DNA from: Dehalococcoidia bacterium
GTDB taxonomy: Bacteria; Chloroflexota; Dehalococcoidia; GIF9; AB-539-J10
Direction of reading: 5' to 3'
Assembly: GCA_030606165.1 (NCBI GenBank)
Contig: JAUWGZ010000004.1
Coordinates: 1-32,552, forward strand
Length of the DNA stretch: 32,552 nucleotides
The notes beneath the pieces are model-generated. The model worked only from the letters and a program-made list of their open reading frames with translations, was not told the origin of the DNA and searched no databases. Both the position numbers and the translations under genes were made by a program. Of the stretch, positions 20,369-27,911 are shown in pieces (the stretch's first letter is position 1; the number at the start of each line of letters is the position of its first letter).

Positions 20369-21625
20369 TTATAATCCCAGTTTTGGCTCTATGTCGCCCA
20401 ATTCTTCTAGCACTGCTTCAATAGGACTAAAGACACCGTAACCATTAGGGAGTCCACCCCAAAAAATTCCGCCCAGCGCTGCATACACAGACCCACCGTC
20501 GGCAATGGCTACATAAACAGGCCCTCCACTATCCCCTGTAGCCCACTCGAAGTCCGCGATAACTTGATCGTCCATCCAGCCATGTGCCGGATTGTGAACG
20601 TCCGAGATGTCCACCACATAGCCAAATGTCGTATCAGTCGTACTGCCCGTCTTCCAAACTGGATGACCTTCAGGTGGGAGACCAGTATACCAGGTCTCTA
20701 TGGGTATGCGGGTTCCATAATGTCTAACACCAGGTAAGATACTCCAACGCCATCCACTCTTTACCCGAGAGGCGTCAGCCTCATCGCCACCCACCAACTC
20801 TACGTATCCCAGGGAAGTATCATCATCATCATAGATCTTGGTTTTTATCGGCATAGGTATAGGTTCAGGGTCGCCTGAGCCTGTACAATCAAGGAAGTGT
20901 CCTGCTGTAACAAACCTCTCATCATAAAAAAAGCCAAGCCTCTTAGTACGGAAACAAGCTGACATCCGAAGATAACCACATTCAGTTTCTTGGTAATAAC
21001 CGTAGATGGCATCTCCCCCAGTAACGTCAGTACTTCCCCGAACCACCTCAGTCTCAACTTCCTCGGCATCAAGAGTCTCAACAGCACAGGAAACGGTTCC
21101 GACCCAGAAGGCGATCGGGAAATCTTCTCCTCCAAGCTCCTGCAGTTGTTCTACTGTTCTATCAATGACATCCCAATTACCATTCCACCTATCTCTATCT
21201 AATAAAACAGAATAATAACCATCTGCCCCGTAGCCAAGTGCAACAATAATAGGTCCTCCAGAAGGATCTGCATAGTCTAACAACTCCACAACACGCTGCC
21301 CAAGAACCTCCTCCTGACTCTCATAGAAGCTCTTCACACGATTGAGATCTGGTGTCCCTGTCTGGTAAATATACTCAGGCATTGGGCGCTCTGGAGCTTC
21401 CATTGGCGGGAGCTCAAGGTAAATAGACTGATGAGGCCTTTGGGGATCTGGAGCTATTGGCAGGTCTTCAAGGCAAATATACTCAGGCACTTGGGGATCT
21501 GGACCTTCCATATCTGGTTGTTCTGCCAACACCAAGAATGGAGTCAACACTAAGGCTAACCCTACTACTAACAGACATATAAGTTTCTTTGACATCGTAA
21601 TCCTCCTTTCTTTCATATTTAGCAA
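20369..21625 (-). CDS. Secreted trypsin-like (S1) serine protease with propeptide
   Basis: Signal peptide LICLLVVGLALVLTPFLVLA; RFVTAGHFLDC (His region); WATGDSGGPVYVA (catalytic Ser). Confidence 0.8.
   Translation of the reverse strand: MLNMKERRITMSKKLICLLVVGLALVLTPFLVLAEQPDMEGPDPQVPEYICLEDLPIAPDPQRPHQSIYLELPPMEAPERPMPEYIYQTGTPDLNRVKSFYESQEEVLGQRVVELLDYADPSGGPIIVALGYGADGYYSVLLDRDRWNGNWDVIDRTVEQLQELGGEDFPIAFWVGTVSCAVETLDAEEVETEVVRGSTDVTGGDAIYGYYQETECGYLRMSACFRTKRLGFFYDERFVTAGHFLDCTGSGDPEPIPMPIKTKIYDDDDTSLGYVELVGGDEADASRVKSGWRWSILPGVRHYGTRIPIETWYTGLPPEGHPVWKTGSTTDTTFGYVVDISDVHNPAHGWMDDQVIADFEWATGDSGGPVYVAIADGGSVYAALGGIFWGGLPNGYGVFSPIEAVLEELGDIEPKLGL
21365..21526 (-). repeat. Three imperfect 54-nt tandem repeats encoding an 18-aa Pro-rich repeat
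   Basis: Repeat starts at 21365, 21419 and 21473 (54-nt period); protein ...PDPQVPEYICLEDLPIAPDPQRPHQSIYLELPPMEAPERPMPEYIYQ. Confidence 0.7.
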
Positions 21626-22646: not shown

Positions 22647-22679
22647 TACTATAACCCCGCTTTCGCCAAAAAGGTTGCA
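22647..22679 (-). promoter_or_regulatory. Putative ECF-type promoter, site B
   Basis: Minus strand TGCAACCTTTTT...; TGCAAC-N19-TTATAGTA, upstream of the 22632 start. Confidence 0.6.
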
Positions 22680-22681
22680 CT

Positions 22682-23239
22682 TTATTCCATCAAATTTCCT
22701 AGTTTTTTTAAGGCCCGGTGCAGTAAAGATTTCACCGTCCCCTCTCGCTTTCCTAGGATTTCTGCAATTTCTTTGACTTGTTTATTTTCAAAGAACCTAA
22801 GCGTAATAACTTCCTGGTATTTAATCGGGAGCTTAGATATGTTTGCGTGTAAAGCAAGGTATTCCTCATGCCTTCTCAAATCCGCCTCAGCCTCAAGGAG
22901 CTCGGACTCAGCCGATGAATCGCCGATGCTGATCGAGTCGGAGACTTCTTCCAAAGAAAATTGCCCCGGTTTATTTTTGCTGAAGTAGTTGGCAATCTCA
23001 TGGGTAGCGATGCGGTAAAGCCACGAGGAGAAAGGAACACCCCGCCAGTGGAATTGTCGCAGGTTCTTTAGAGCCTTGAAAACTACTTCTGCAGTTACAT
23101 CCTGGGCGATTTCAATGCTGGCTGTCCTTCTTAGAACATAGCCAAAAAGCTGGGGGTAATAATGGTCATAGAGCTCAGCGAAAGCCTCGGTATTGCTCTT
23201 AGCTCTTTCGACTAATTCTTTTTCCCGCTCTAAATCCAT
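22682..23239 (-). CDS. ECF RNA polymerase sigma factor 1
   Basis: LYDHYYPQLFGYVLRRTASIEIAQDVTAEVVFKAL and C-terminal sigma4 ITLRFFENKQVKEIAEILGKREGTVKSLLHRAL. Start moved from 23407 to 23239 (MDLEREKELVERA) by alignment with the second sigma factor. Confidence 0.88.
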   Translation of the reverse strand: MDLEREKELVERAKSNTEAFAELYDHYYPQLFGYVLRRTASIEIAQDVTAEVVFKALKNLRQFHWRGVPFSSWLYRIATHEIANYFSKNKPGQFSLEEVSDSISIGDSSAESELLEAEADLRRHEEYLALHANISKLPIKYQEVITLRFFENKQVKEIAEILGKREGTVKSLLHRALKKLGNLME

Positions 23240-23273
23240 TTCTTGCTGCCTAATTAATGACGCAATACCCCTA

Positions 23274-23305
23274 TAGTATAACCCGCGATTTCTAAAAAGG
23301 TTGCA
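23274..23305 (-). promoter_or_regulatory. Putative ECF-type promoter, site A
   Basis: Minus strand TGCAAC-N18-TTATACTA with CTTTTT after TGCAAC, 34 nt upstream of the revised sigma start. Confidence 0.65.
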
Positions 23306-23483
23306 CTTATTGCTTTGAGAAACAGACAAGGGTCTGTCGGGAGCCGCCAGAGAAAAGGGCGGGTCAAACAGTACTACTTGAGTTTCATGATTGCGGAGGG
23401 ATTGCACAAAAGTCAGAGAAATGCAATCCCCTTTTGGGGATTAGGGCTTCGGAGACAACATTTGGCTTGGCACCAAGCGGTAA

Positions 23484-23540
23484 TTAAGGCTGGTCAAGGT
23501 ATTCCTCAAATCGAACAGGGTCGAGGTTAACCTCGACCCT
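23484..23540 (+). repeat. Interspersed hairpin repeat, copy 3
   Basis: TTAAGGCTGGTCAAGGTATTCCTCAAATCGAACAGGGTCGAGGTTAACCTCGACCCT; perfect palindrome AGGGTCGAGGTTAACCTCGACCCT. Confidence 0.85.
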
Positions 23541-23575
23541 ATTCAATGCCTCTGTGCAGTAAAGGAGGCGTTTGC

Positions 23576-24871
23576 TCAGGCACCGGGATTCATGACGCGC
23601 CCGACAAAGAGAATGGCACCCGTCTCAATGTCGCGAATCAGGAAGATGAAGGGGCGGTCTAGGGTGACTTTCACAGGAGGTTCAGGTACTGCCGTTGTTC
23701 CGACAATCACTGCGGTGGCAGCCGCAGCTTCGGTGCCTGCTTCATCCACGGCAACGAATGCCTTGTGCACAACGTCTGATATGAACAGCTCGGGTTTACC
23801 AGTCATTCCGGAAAAATCCGCGTCATGAGGAGAAAAGGCAATCGGCATGCCCATCCCGGCGAGGGTATCCTTCAGGCTGAATTCTGAGTCAAATTCAAAC
23901 TGGGGCATCGTCAGGGCGACCTCAGTAGGTTGCAGACCGCTTATAATGTCACAGACCTGCTGAGCCTGAAGTCCTTCTTCAAAAGCCTCGAACTCGCCAG
24001 CTTCGGGCAGGAAAATAACCATGGAGAGTTCATCGCCGTCATAGAGCAGCTCGACTGCCTGGTATCCTTCCCCCTCGGTGTAGCCGAATGACTCCGTCTG
24101 CTTCATCATCGGCACAGTTACCTGCCCGCCGTCAAGCAGGTAGAACGGGCCGTCTGCTGTCATGTCCTCATCGAAAGGGTACTCCCAGGCAGCATTGAAG
24201 TAGATAGCATTAGTTAGCACAAGTCGGGTCAGTTCATCAATCGCGCCTTGCGGGATAAGGTCTTCGATGCGGCCTTCTGTCTGGTCACTGACCCAATCAT
24301 TGATGGTGAGGCGGGACTTTTCCGTCTCCGTCATGAAATCAAGTATTCTCAGCCCGGCACCGTAGTTCTCGGCCAGGACATCCAGGAAGTCGGACAGGAA
24401 CTCATAATCCTTTTGCCCCCAGATGGCATTAACAATGTTCAGCCTGAATCCTTCCCCGTCCTTGCCTTCAGCACCTTCACCCCTTTTAGCAAGTTCTGCA
24501 TCGAGCCAGTTAAACGCCGGGTGCAGCTTATCCTGGTCAAGAAGGAGTTGAAGAGTATCGGCCATCTGTTGGGCGGTTTCGCCACTCGCTCCGGCATATG
24601 TCATCGCCAGCGCCAGTGAGATGCTATAAGGAGAGTAGAAAAGATTACCCTCCTCCCCTTTAAGCGCCTGATAAAGCTCGAAGGCGAAGGCGCTGTTTCC
24701 TTCAACCAGCAATGCCTGCTCACTCGTGCTGACATCCGGTGAGGTTATCCGCTCTTTATCTGATTTGAGCACCTCGCCTGCTGCCGGCTGAGCCATCTGA
24801 ATAGAGGCTATCACCGGCAGCAGCAACACTATGACTAATACGGCTATCAATCTCCTATTCATTTTGTTCAC
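23576..24871 (-). CDS. Secreted serpin (serine protease inhibitor)
   Basis: NLFYSPYSISLALAMTYAGASGETAQQM, LVLTNAIYFNAAWEYPF, hinge DEAGTEAAAATA, C-terminal DRPFIFLIRDIETGAILFVGRVMNP. Confidence 0.95.
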   Translation of the reverse strand: MNKMNRRLIAVLVIVLLLPVIASIQMAQPAAGEVLKSDKERITSPDVSTSEQALLVEGNSAFAFELYQALKGEEGNLFYSPYSISLALAMTYAGASGETAQQMADTLQLLLDQDKLHPAFNWLDAELAKRGEGAEGKDGEGFRLNIVNAIWGQKDYEFLSDFLDVLAENYGAGLRILDFMTETEKSRLTINDWVSDQTEGRIEDLIPQGAIDELTRLVLTNAIYFNAAWEYPFDEDMTADGPFYLLDGGQVTVPMMKQTESFGYTEGEGYQAVELLYDGDELSMVIFLPEAGEFEAFEEGLQAQQVCDIISGLQPTEVALTMPQFEFDSEFSLKDTLAGMGMPIAFSPHDADFSGMTGKPELFISDVVHKAFVAVDEAGTEAAAATAVIVGTTAVPEPPVKVTLDRPFIFLIRDIETGAILFVGRVMNPGA

Positions 24872-24949
24872 CTCCTACAAGTATTTAAACTGTTTAATTT
24901 TGCCCTTCCGTTCAAATTTGGCCATTTCGAAAACTTTTTACCTCCAGAT

Positions 24950-26947
24950 TTAGTATAAGAGTTGCACCTCATTGATGTAATCCAGATTTTCCAGGTTGTT
25001 CATCTTTATCTTAGCGTCCGAGATAGTGTAGAGAACATCGTCTATGTAAAGAGACCTCGTCACCGAGAAGGGATAGTAAAAATAGTAATAATCTTGCTCC
25101 AGTTCAGCGAGATTCTCAATATGGGTGATTCTGCCTTCCAGCCTGAGGCCTGCATCCGGGGATATATGGAATACATACGCGCCTTGCCAGACAGGCTCGC
25201 CGTAAGCCCACGAGGGAACTCCTCCAGGATGCTTTGACTGATCTACTTCTGCGACCAAAACAGGTATCACCAGCAGGTTCCTGGACTTATCAAATAGAAA
25301 TGCTTTGTGGTTCCGCAAAACCGGCGAATCGGTGCCCCTGTGACCTATTATTTCCTTGTCTATCTCCCTCGGGTTGTTGACATCGCTGACATCAAAGAGT
25401 GATATCTTGACTCCTTGATACCAGGCAAATTCCCCCTCGTCTGTTGTTTCCTTACCTATCCCTATGAGGTGGTTTTCGTCATAGGGGTGGAGATAGTCTG
25501 AGTAGCCAGTTACCTTTAAGTAGCCGAGCTCTTTAGGGTCACGGGGGTTACTGAGGTCTATCACGAATAGCGGGTCAACCTGCTTGAAGGTTACCAGATA
25601 GCCTCTCTCACCCATAAACCTGGCGGAATAGATGGTTTCCCCGGGAGCGAGGTTTTCCAGTGAGCCGGTAATGTTGAGGGCCATATCCAGGATGTATATG
25701 TGATTCCGGGATGTTCCTTCGCGGGTTGTGGTTGCCACCCTGAAGTAGCCATCATACTCATCCATGGAGAACTGATTCAGCACCATGCCGGGGACCTCGC
25801 CGCTGGCAACAGGCTCTATTTCGGCACCTTCTATATGAATCCGGTGGATAGAGGTTTTTCCAAAATCTCCTACATCCCTCCCCCACACCGGGAAGGTCAG
25901 ATAAATGTTATTCAAAGAGACATACAGGTTGCTACTGGCTCCCAGCAGGATTGTTTCATATGTCGGCTCCTGGTTATCGACCTGTGTGTTTATGGCTATA
26001 ATAGTCGTGTACATATAATAGTAGTCAGAAACATCGAAATAGTAGATATCTGTGGCAGGTATTTCCGTCTCGTTGCCGCCAGAATAAATCCTGGGAAGGT
26101 TCAGTTCATCGTCTTGTTCATACACAGGCTCGTTTATCACAACGTAAGTGTAATTGCCTATCATCCGTGAACTGACGTATTGACCATCGGCGGAAATTTC
26201 CCTTTGCAACCGGGGGTTTTCCCTGTTTGAGACATCATATACTTTGATATTGATAGATGTCTCGGGTAATATGTAACCGATGTAAGATTCCCTTACAAAG
26301 GGGGGCGGGGACATGTCATCATAATAAGGATAATAAGGTGGTCCCTCCTCAAACACGACCAGCCTATCTCCGTTGATGAATATTCCTATCGCTGTTCCCT
26401 CTAGCTCTATTTCAGACAAGACTTGAGCCTGTGCAGGAGGATACGCCTTCACGATGATAGTCCTGTTCCCCGAAACGAGATAGATATACTTTCCGTCGGT
26501 CTTAACGATATCTGCCTCGTCCACCCCGGCAACCTGTATATTGGTTGTAGCGTAGTCTGGGGCGGCGGGGGCATATACGAAGCCTTCTCCCTTTACTGCT
26601 CCACTTACGTCCAAAAGGACGACGTCCCTCCAAGGGAATGCTGTATATTGTGCGTTTGCCTTTATGAAATCTTGCAATTCCTCATAAGAAGCGAACCTGC
26701 TGATTTGATTCTCTCCCAGAAGCGCGGGCTGAGGCTCGGGCTCAATCACCGCCGAAAGTCCCAAAACCGCTATTAAAAGCAGAGCAGTAGCGACGGGGGC
26801 TAATATTTTTGCCCAATACATAATAGTCCTTTTCTTAAAATGCCCGGAGTTCAGCAAAGCCATTTTTAGTGCCTGTTTATGGCCAGTAAGTTCGATTTCC
26901 GGAGTTTCAAGGTTTTCCAGTTTCTGGATTAGGTCCTCGTGTTTCAT
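24950..26947 (-). CDS. Membrane-anchored beta-propeller domain protein (PF09826-type) with anti-sigma-like N-terminus
   Basis: QVAGVDEADIVKTDGKYIYLVSGNRTIIVKAYPP signature; N-terminal MKHEDLIQKLENLETPEIELTGHKQALKMALLNSG then a TM segment. Confidence 0.82.
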   Translation of the reverse strand: MKHEDLIQKLENLETPEIELTGHKQALKMALLNSGHFKKRTIMYWAKILAPVATALLLIAVLGLSAVIEPEPQPALLGENQISRFASYEELQDFIKANAQYTAFPWRDVVLLDVSGAVKGEGFVYAPAAPDYATTNIQVAGVDEADIVKTDGKYIYLVSGNRTIIVKAYPPAQAQVLSEIELEGTAIGIFINGDRLVVFEEGPPYYPYYDDMSPPPFVRESYIGYILPETSINIKVYDVSNRENPRLQREISADGQYVSSRMIGNYTYVVINEPVYEQDDELNLPRIYSGGNETEIPATDIYYFDVSDYYYMYTTIIAINTQVDNQEPTYETILLGASSNLYVSLNNIYLTFPVWGRDVGDFGKTSIHRIHIEGAEIEPVASGEVPGMVLNQFSMDEYDGYFRVATTTREGTSRNHIYILDMALNITGSLENLAPGETIYSARFMGERGYLVTFKQVDPLFVIDLSNPRDPKELGYLKVTGYSDYLHPYDENHLIGIGKETTDEGEFAWYQGVKISLFDVSDVNNPREIDKEIIGHRGTDSPVLRNHKAFLFDKSRNLLVIPVLVAEVDQSKHPGGVPSWAYGEPVWQGAYVFHISPDAGLRLEGRITHIENLAELEQDYYYFYYPFSVTRSLYIDDVLYTISDAKIKMNNLENLDYINEVQLLY

Positions 26948-26966
26948 AAACTTTGTCTCCTTCTAT

Positions 26967-26999
26967 TACTGTAAATGCAGGAGGCCGAAAAAGGTTGCA
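26967..26999 (-). promoter_or_regulatory. Putative ECF-type promoter, site C
   Basis: Minus strand TGCAACCTTTTT; TGCAAC-N19-TTACAGTA, upstream of the beta-propeller gene. Confidence 0.6.
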
Positions 27000-27039
27000 T
27001 TGTTTAGCCCAAAAATTCGCAAGATTTTCGTGGGGTGGT

Positions 27040-27612
27040 TTAATCTGCTTCTCTTAATTTTTCCACTGCCCGGTGGAGCAGGGATTTTATCGTTCCCTCT
27101 TTTTTCCCCAGGATTTCGGCGATTTCTTTAATCTGTTTTTGCTCAAAAAATCTGAGAGCAATGACCTCCTGGTATTTAGCAGGGAGCCGAACGATTTTTT
27201 CCTGAATTTCCAGAAAATCCTGATGTTGTTTTAATTTTTCCTGCGCTTCTATTAGTTCGCTTTCGGGGTTATGGGACGATATGGGTTCAAAACCCTGTTC
27301 CTGCAATTCCTCCAGTGATACGGATTTTTTGTATTCGGCTTTTCTAAAGTACTGGTTAATCTCGTTGGTGGCGATTTTATACAGCCACGAGGAAAAAGAG
27401 ATATTGCGCCAGCGAAATTGCCAGAGCTTCCTCAATGCCTTTAAAAATGTCTCTGAAGTAATATCCTGGGCAGCTTCAAGATTGGCAGTTCGCCTCAGGA
27501 CATAGCCAAAGATTTGGGGATAATACTGGTCATAAAGCTTGGCGAAAGCAACAGGGGCTTTTTGTGCCTGTCTGACGAGTTCCTTTTCTTCGCTTAAATC
27601 TATATTAGCCAA
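27040..27612 (-). CDS. ECF RNA polymerase sigma factor 2
   Basis: LYDQYYPQIFGYVLRRTANLEAAQDITSETFLKALRKLWQFRW and IALRFFEQKQIKEIAEILGKKEGTIKSLLHRAVEKL. Confidence 0.92.
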   Translation of the reverse strand: MANIDLSEEKELVRQAQKAPVAFAKLYDQYYPQIFGYVLRRTANLEAAQDITSETFLKALRKLWQFRWRNISFSSWLYKIATNEINQYFRKAEYKKSVSLEELQEQGFEPISSHNPESELIEAQEKLKQHQDFLEIQEKIVRLPAKYQEVIALRFFEQKQIKEIAEILGKKEGTIKSLLHRAVEKLREAD

Positions 27613-27636
27613 TGGAAAAAACTAAGCGTACTTCAT

Positions 27637-27668
27637 TAGTGTAATGCACCAGTAACGATTTAGTTGCA
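27637..27668 (-). promoter_or_regulatory. Putative ECF-type promoter, site D
   Basis: Minus strand TGCAAC-N18-TTACACTA, 24 nt upstream of the sigma factor 2 start; lacks the CTTTTT extension. Confidence 0.45.
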
Positions 27669-27911
27669 CCAAAATCTTAGTTTATACTGTATCACCCCCC
27701 CACACACTGTCAAGCGTTCTTTTTAGATTTTCGGCGGATTGGTAAAAAGCCGGTAAATTGAGTGATAGGGGCTGAGCCCCACAGTTGCTGGGAATGACTC
27801 AGAACCTTAAGCTATTATAATGTTATAATAAAAGAGATTCGTGACAATAGTGCACATATATAAAAAAAGAAGCTCAAATGAGATTCTGCGCGCATTAGAT
27901 GTGAAGTCTTC

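Follow-up and report, generated by a model that had tools for sequence, protein, structure and literature searches.

The 32,552-nt stretch analyzed here, called the window (an uncultured Dehalococcoidia bacterium, contig JAUWGZ010000004.1, positions 1 to 32,552), carries two paralogous gene pairs on its minus strand, each consisting of an extracytoplasmic function (ECF) sigma factor and a membrane-anchored partner protein, and one bipartite motif lies upstream of all four genes. With a probability of about 0.8, we read these sites as the promoters of two ECF sigma/anti-sigma modules, in which each sigma factor would activate its partner gene in negative feedback, the -10 elements would partially insulate the modules from each other, and the partner-gene promoter would have been copied to further genes.

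Promoter sites and their register

The first-pass annotation described four sites of the form TGCAAC-N18/19-TTA(T/C)A(C/G)TA, three of them with the extension TGCAACCTTTTT. All four are present on the minus strand where it placed them, and the extension is found in three of the four. The pattern TGCAACN{17,20}TTAYASTA is matched exactly at these four places in the window and nowhere else in it, where shuffled sequence would give 0.01 matches; the word TGCAAC alone is neither rarer nor commoner than chance (18 observed, 14.5 expected). The genome (1.28 Mb, 123 contigs, 81% complete) holds five matches and none to a reversed control pattern, i.e., the motif is not equally frequent in coding DNA. 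The fifth match lies on contig C18, 17 nt upstream of a gene encoding a DUF4349-domain lipoprotein. When a scoring matrix was built from 41 sites of other genomes alone, the sites at 23305, 22679 and 26999 ranked first to third in the window (30.8, 27.8 and 24.5 bits), with 8.2 bits for the best other window position and a maximum of 16.4 over 40 Markov windows. The site at 27668, upstream of sigma B and hereafter site D, was not recovered by the matrix scan of the window. At its end, the propeller gene contains TGCAACTCTTATACTA (24951-24966, minus strand), which holds both promoter words and was ruled out as a promoter as the halves are only 2 nt apart.

When the sites are aligned as TGCAAC-N16, the spacing is constant, followed by GGTT at the sigma-A site and by C(A/G)TT at the partner-B site and site D; the partner-A site alone is longer, by one spacer base. 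The -10 begins about 2 nt upstream of the TTAYASTA block, and the spacer appeared as a variable N18/19 because the -10 had been anchored on that block, with one extra T in the GCATTTACAGTA type. The concern that the -10 was uncertain because it lay only 14 nt from an ATG largely disappears once the element is shifted. By information content, all clades share the core TGCAACYTTT ... GCRTTA. Sigma promoters of the neighbouring family f2 have lost the ASTA tail, which is therefore not part of the -10 core.

Hallmarks of ECF promoters are AAC at -35 and CGT at -10 (PMC8103513), and the window sites agree with these, reading TGCAAC-N16-CRTT/GGTT with a spacer of about 16 nt. The T-tract directly after AAC is a known selectivity element of Bacillus subtilis ECF promoters (PMC6056542; PMC6767563). 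The BldN promoter CGTAAC-N16-CGTTGA (PMC2375139) is absent at the sites; the register is equal and the halves are similar, but the window has TGCAAC and CRTTAY. On sequence grounds, the sites are best read as ECF promoters in a BldN-like register, TGCAAC-N16-CRTT(A).

Conservation among relatives

The collection of sigma homologues drew on 60 related genomes plus GTDB contigs, the named records being mostly metagenome-assembled genomes (MAGs) of Dehalococcoidia/Chloroflexota. The sigma tree contains a clade A (96/89), a clade B (95/90) and an f2 clade (100/100). The motif occurs in 14 of 25 sigma-bearing relatives compared with 1 of 34 without the sigma, and this tracking of sigma genes across genomes supports the earlier view that ECF-type promoters with an AAC -35 control the sigma and partner genes.

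The two kinds of site are not equally conserved. Upstream of the partner gene, the motif is found in all seven A-clade modules, in essentially all B-clade modules where the region after the sigma gene is readable, and in the f2 modules. It often overlaps the sigma stop codon, and in the window the partner-A promoter starts 2 nt past the stop codon of sigma A. Upstream of the sigma gene, the motif is strong in all seven A-clade modules and almost every f2 module, whereas clade B has a degenerate form, with TGAAAC, GGAAAC or AAAAAC in the same N16 register. The B-clade regions also have a conserved TTRCTAGTRCAYT and, about 50 nt further upstream, a TTGACA element that is largely kept among closer relatives. 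Autoregulation through an AAC-containing -35, as proposed earlier, thus holds up for sigma A and is weak for sigma B, whose -35 is degenerate in relatives and which has a housekeeping-type promoter just upstream. The conserved feature of the family is predicted to be sigma control of the partner gene, i.e., negative feedback, and not sigma autoregulation.

As its training set consisted of orthologous promoters, the matrix measures conservation and not discovery. Sites within a clade are inherited, and neither the counts nor the Fisher tests are independent. Site D is poorly conserved, and the one-base change that gives its TGCAAC occurs in the window species only.

Homologous sigma/partner pairs were also seen in Patescibacteria or other distant MAGs (L053, i.e., CG10_46_32; L054; L056, Patescibacteria), with the motif retained in L053. 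Horizontal transfer or a binning error are possible explanations for these pairs.

Table 1. Genes and predicted promoter elements of the two modules in the window
Feature	Position	Strand	Description
Partner A, 295 aa	21745..22632	-	37-aa N-terminal segment, one transmembrane (TM) helix at about 76-96, extracytoplasmic domain without Pfam match
Candidate anti-sigma segment, partner A, 37 aa	22522..22632	-	Sole region in common with partner B
Partner-A promoter	22647..22679	-	-35 TGCAAC 22674-22679, T-tract CTTTTT, N17, -10 GGTTAT 22651-22656; homologous site in 7/7 A-clade modules
Sigma A, ECF sigma factor, 185 aa	22682..23239	-	ATG at 23239; Pfam Sigma70_r2 + r4_2
Sigma-A promoter	23274..23305	-	-35 TGCAAC 23300-23305, N16, -10 GGTTAT 23278-23283; kept in 7/7 A-clade modules
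Serpin	23576..24862	-	Pfam PF00079; downstream of the propeller gene
Partner B, 665 aa	24950..26947	-	Same N-terminal segment, TM at about 48-68, Beta_propel PF09826 (E 1.5e-168)
Candidate anti-sigma segment, partner B, 37 aa	26837..26947	-	Conserved in homologues
Partner-B (propeller) promoter	26967..26999	-	-35 TGCAAC 26994-26999, N16, -10 CATTTA 26972-26977; kept in essentially all B-clade modules, near-copy upstream of DUF4349
Sigma B, ECF sigma factor, 190 aa	27040..27612	-	TTG start; Pfam Sigma70_r2 + r4_2
Site D, weak ECF-like site upstream of sigma B	27637..27668	-	TGCAAC-N16-CATTAC, -10 27641-27646
Housekeeping-type promoter upstream of sigma B	27686..27713	-	TTGACA-N16-TACAGT, TG before -10; 10/12 matches

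Sigma factors and insulation between the modules

Sigma A and sigma B are 58% identical two-domain ECF factors, and both score above the NCBIfam sigma70-ECF cutoff. Their best NCBIfam match is the BldN family (TIGR02952), although at 122.3 and 136.8 bits they do not reach its cutoff of 206.45 bits. The closest solved chain is 6dxo, which we take to be the BldN-RsbN complex. The start codon of sigma B in relatives, an ATG (ATGGATTTAAGC), is ATA in the window (27603-27605, minus strand); unless translation of sigma B is weak here, it would have to begin upstream, at the TTG at 27612.

The shared sites had been taken to imply two cross-talking sigma circuits, which our results do not support as stated, as the -35 and the region-4.2 helix are shared while the -10 is module-specific. 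A nearly invariant region-4.2 helix, GK(K/R)EGT(V/I)KSLLHR, occurs in every clade and would explain the common -35. Region 2.4 differs, with IATHEIANYF in clade A and IA.NE...... in clade B and f2. The -10 halves divide by module, as GGTTATA is found in A and CATT or CGTT in B and in every other target. GG precedes TTA at 8 of 10 A-module sites in relatives and at both in the window, compared with 0 of 27 B-module and all other targets, and the corresponding Fisher value of 1e-6 overstates independence because the sites are related by descent. External targets in three relatives (G011, G013 and G014) all carry the B-type -10. With a module-specific -10 and B-type external targets, partial insulation is therefore more likely than free cross-talk, and sigma B would serve the wider regulon; some cross-recognition between the sigmas is possible.

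If the -10 differences were neutral, both sigmas could read all four sites equally. We consider this doubtful, as GG before TTA is confined to one module and the A-type -10 occurs in no external target, even though the -35 and T-tract are identical in three sites, the recognition helices are near-identical and both clades derive from a sigma that already used the motif. Single -10 bases are known to separate SigX from SigW in B. subtilis (PMC6767563). Partial insulation is itself challenged by relative G056, where a clade-A sigma has one GG and one CG site, and by the f2 modules, which use CG and CA together; the -10 difference may thus reflect promoter strength rather than specificity.

Partner proteins as candidate anti-sigma factors

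Partners A and B share their first 37 residues only (49% identity), followed by a linker, one hydrophobic helix and unrelated, sensor-like extracytoplasmic parts. Among 20 homologues, the segment follows the pattern MK.E.LI.KLE...P.I.L..H+..L+..LL, with H23 and L27 invariant. The partners are probable anti-sigma factors, judging from this segment and its position. Homologues of sigma B with more than 90% identity are followed either by a segment-TM-propeller fusion (the window, L039, L040, L042) or by a 190-200-aa segment-TM-acidic protein, and in L051 a separate secreted propeller gene follows the latter.

The partner genes could instead be ordinary targets encoding secreted propeller or other envelope proteins. 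Known anti-sigma domains were not detected in them by Pfam or by profile search of solved chains, and in some relatives the gene directly after sigma B encodes a secreted protein, with the partner farther on. However, a short cytosolic segment plus TM helix adjoins each sigma in all clades, while the C-terminal domain is swapped between a propeller, an acidic domain of about 130 aa and the A-type domain. Furthermore, L047, L049 and L051 retain the segment-TM protein when the propeller is separate. This makes the ordinary-target explanation unlikely.

The assignment of the partners as anti-sigma factors must nevertheless be set against two weaknesses. The 37-aa segment has no match in Pfam, or in solved chains by profile search, and the structure models of the partners are of low confidence (mean pLDDT, the predicted local distance difference test, 55 for partner A and 30 for partner B). 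In both models the segment forms a helix-loop-helix before the TM helix (H3-11, H23-33 and TM H42-66 in one of them), which, as a lead, may resemble the two-helix layout of class II anti-sigma factors such as CnrY (PMC7406223). The N-terminal domain of class I anti-sigma factors (ASDI, often zinc-binding) is about 100 aa (PMC7406223), and the segment, with 37 aa, no Hx3Cx2C and no Pfam match, does not fit this class. Class III anti-sigma factors (RsbN) have a three-helix N-terminal domain, as in the BldN-RsbN complex. Neither partner model is strong enough to name a fold, and for partner A the top Foldseek matches, the YpeB C-terminal domain and YpmB, have E values above 0.03.

The serpin gene downstream of the propeller gene has the same place in L039, L040, L042, L044, L045, L047, L049 and L051, where the sequence reached, and probably belongs to the B operon. 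The signal input is likely to be the state of the extracytoplasmic propeller or of a protease system. The cluster with the sigma modules also encodes a weakly trypsin-like secreted protein (20369-21595, minus strand; best Pfam match Trypsin, E 0.18). It is conceivable that the serpin and this protein form a protease/inhibitor pair acting on the partners.

Regulon and promoter copying

The pattern TGCAACNTTTN{12,16}TTAYANTA has 35 sites in the 60 genomes, and its control none. Besides sigma and partner genes, the targets are DUF4349, two DUF58 proteins, a Kre9/KNH-like protein and a number of proteins that seem to carry signal peptides. Most of these additional targets seem to bear a signal, lipoprotein or membrane sequence, and most would fit an envelope response. 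One assignment is ambiguous, as the site on G011 contig C138 is followed by short frames and then by a QueC-like gene at 188 nt.

Over a stretch of 78 bp that takes in the non-contacted spacer and an upstream hairpin, the promoter in front of DUF4349 in the window genome matches the DNA between sigma B and partner B of relative G012 at 97.4% identity. In G010 the DUF4349 locus is collinear and its flanks align, but a block of about 57 bp is missing. A reading of the copy as a recent transposition, with target duplications and terminal repeats, was set aside, as no clear target-site duplication was seen in this empty-site alignment, whose borders have only short A-rich and AGGCAAA similarity. 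As the DUF4349 promoter is a near-copy that is absent from the collinear locus of a relative, the regulon appears to grow by promoter copying. The copy would have gone from partner gene to DUF4349, because the partner promoter is general in the clade and the DUF4349 block is found in two species only (G000, G005). Similarity beyond the contacted bases extends to other targets. Across 13 promoters, which belong almost entirely to unrelated genes, the 11-nt non-contacted spacers have a mean identity of 51% compared with 29% when shuffled (largest of 2000 shuffles 35%), and two promoters in G014 are 79% identical over 99 bp. Recruitment of targets by copying of the partner-gene promoter is the most economical reading of these alignments.

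A convergent origin of the DUF4349 promoter, or loss of the block in G010, is improbable. G010 provides a single clean empty-site comparison, which alone leaves a deletion possible, but the 97.4% identity including spacer and hairpin DNA speaks against this rival, as does the spacer identity across 13 promoters, and the DUF4349 genes of other genera with a readable upstream region have no such block. DUF4349 is preceded in those genera by another ECF-like promoter (TAAACCTTT...TCGTTTATAAT), one that it shares with a further ECF paralogue. There, TAAACCTTT-N-TCGTTTATAATgTTAAA precedes both the paralogue (L034-L037) and DUF4349 (L065-L072), forming a separate regulon.

Extending promoter copying to the lineage as a whole, ECF regulons may grow by intragenomic copy-and-paste of the anti-sigma gene promoter upstream of unrelated envelope genes, in blocks of about 50-100 bp comprising the -35, spacer, -10 and ribosome-binding region, a generalization to which we give even odds. 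If true, each recruited gene would automatically be co-controlled with the negative feedback of the sigma factor.

The conserved block is very unlikely to be the site of a separate transcription factor, or a TATAGT/TACAGT housekeeping -10 with an activator at TGCAAC, since, for all that TAYAST looks like a sigma-70 -10 and f2 sigma promoters have an additional TGCAAC..GTTGCG inverted repeat, the motif co-occurs with these sigma genes, its N16 register is fixed with BldN-like halves, and the f2 sigma sites lack TAYAST yet retain CGTTA, identifying CRTTA as the core -10. The sigma-70 reading of TAYAST was set aside on this last point. The second TGCAAC and inverted GTTGCG of the f2 sigma promoters (TGCAACCTTTTTGCAACCGTTGCGTTA; L024, L026-L028, L031-L033) form perhaps an overlapping operator.

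Proposed circuit and comparison with known systems

In the circuit we propose, the membrane-anchored partner would release its sigma factor, and the freed sigma would transcribe the partner gene, which has a promoter to itself (TGCAACCTTT-N-CRTTA), so that negative feedback would be fast. Sigma A would also transcribe its own gene, while the sigma B gene would be driven mainly by the housekeeping promoter with a contribution from the weak ECF site. Region 4.2 of both sigmas would read the common -35, and partial insulation would come from the -10, which is GGTTA in module A and CATT/CGTT in module B and the wider envelope regulon. Copying of the partner-gene promoter would account for at least part of the targets gained by the B-type regulon.

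This type of circuit is already known, and the closest system is BldN/RsbN in Streptomyces. Both have an ECF sigma whose promoters share the same register (PMC2375139) and, next to it, the gene of a membrane anti-sigma (in the window a candidate one) with its own promoter, BldN-dependent for rsbN and predicted to be sigma-dependent here; the anti-sigma is far more divergent than the sigma (PMC4255298). However, the window sigmas score below the family cutoff (122-137 against 206 bits), the sites have TGCAAC and a T-tract instead of CGTAAC, and the partner segment is shorter and not detectably RsbN. The targets also differ, being envelope genes here and aerial-hypha genes for BldN.

The SigI/RsgI system of Clostridium thermocellum is similar in having several homologous sigmas, anti-sigmas with extracellular sensor modules and limited cross-talk set by promoter elements (PMC6056542), but SigI is not a canonical ECF factor, its promoters have A-tracts and each sigI-rsgI operon has a single promoter. 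SigM, SigW, SigX and SigV of B. subtilis share the AAC -35 followed by a T-tract, with -10 bases that discriminate (PMC6767563; PMC6056542); the sequences differ, and the known regulators (e.g., RsiW) are class I anti-sigma factors. Promoter copying is comparable to horizontal regulatory transfer and switched intergenic regions, where a gene gains a non-homologous upstream region and its regulation changes (PMC5890482), with the difference that the donor is recognizable here as the promoter of the sigma's own partner gene.

Significance

ECF signalling in Dehalococcoidia seems little studied, as our literature search, which did not cover the newest ECF classification, gave no dedicated work. 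For this class, the results define a promoter code together with a candidate family of sigma/anti-sigma pairs. The two sister modules, with the same -35 and different -10, provide a natural test of insulation between duplicated sigmas. DUF4349 is a traceable case of a gene joining a sigma regulon through a physical promoter copy, and allows a direct test of the usual assumption that such sites evolve convergently.

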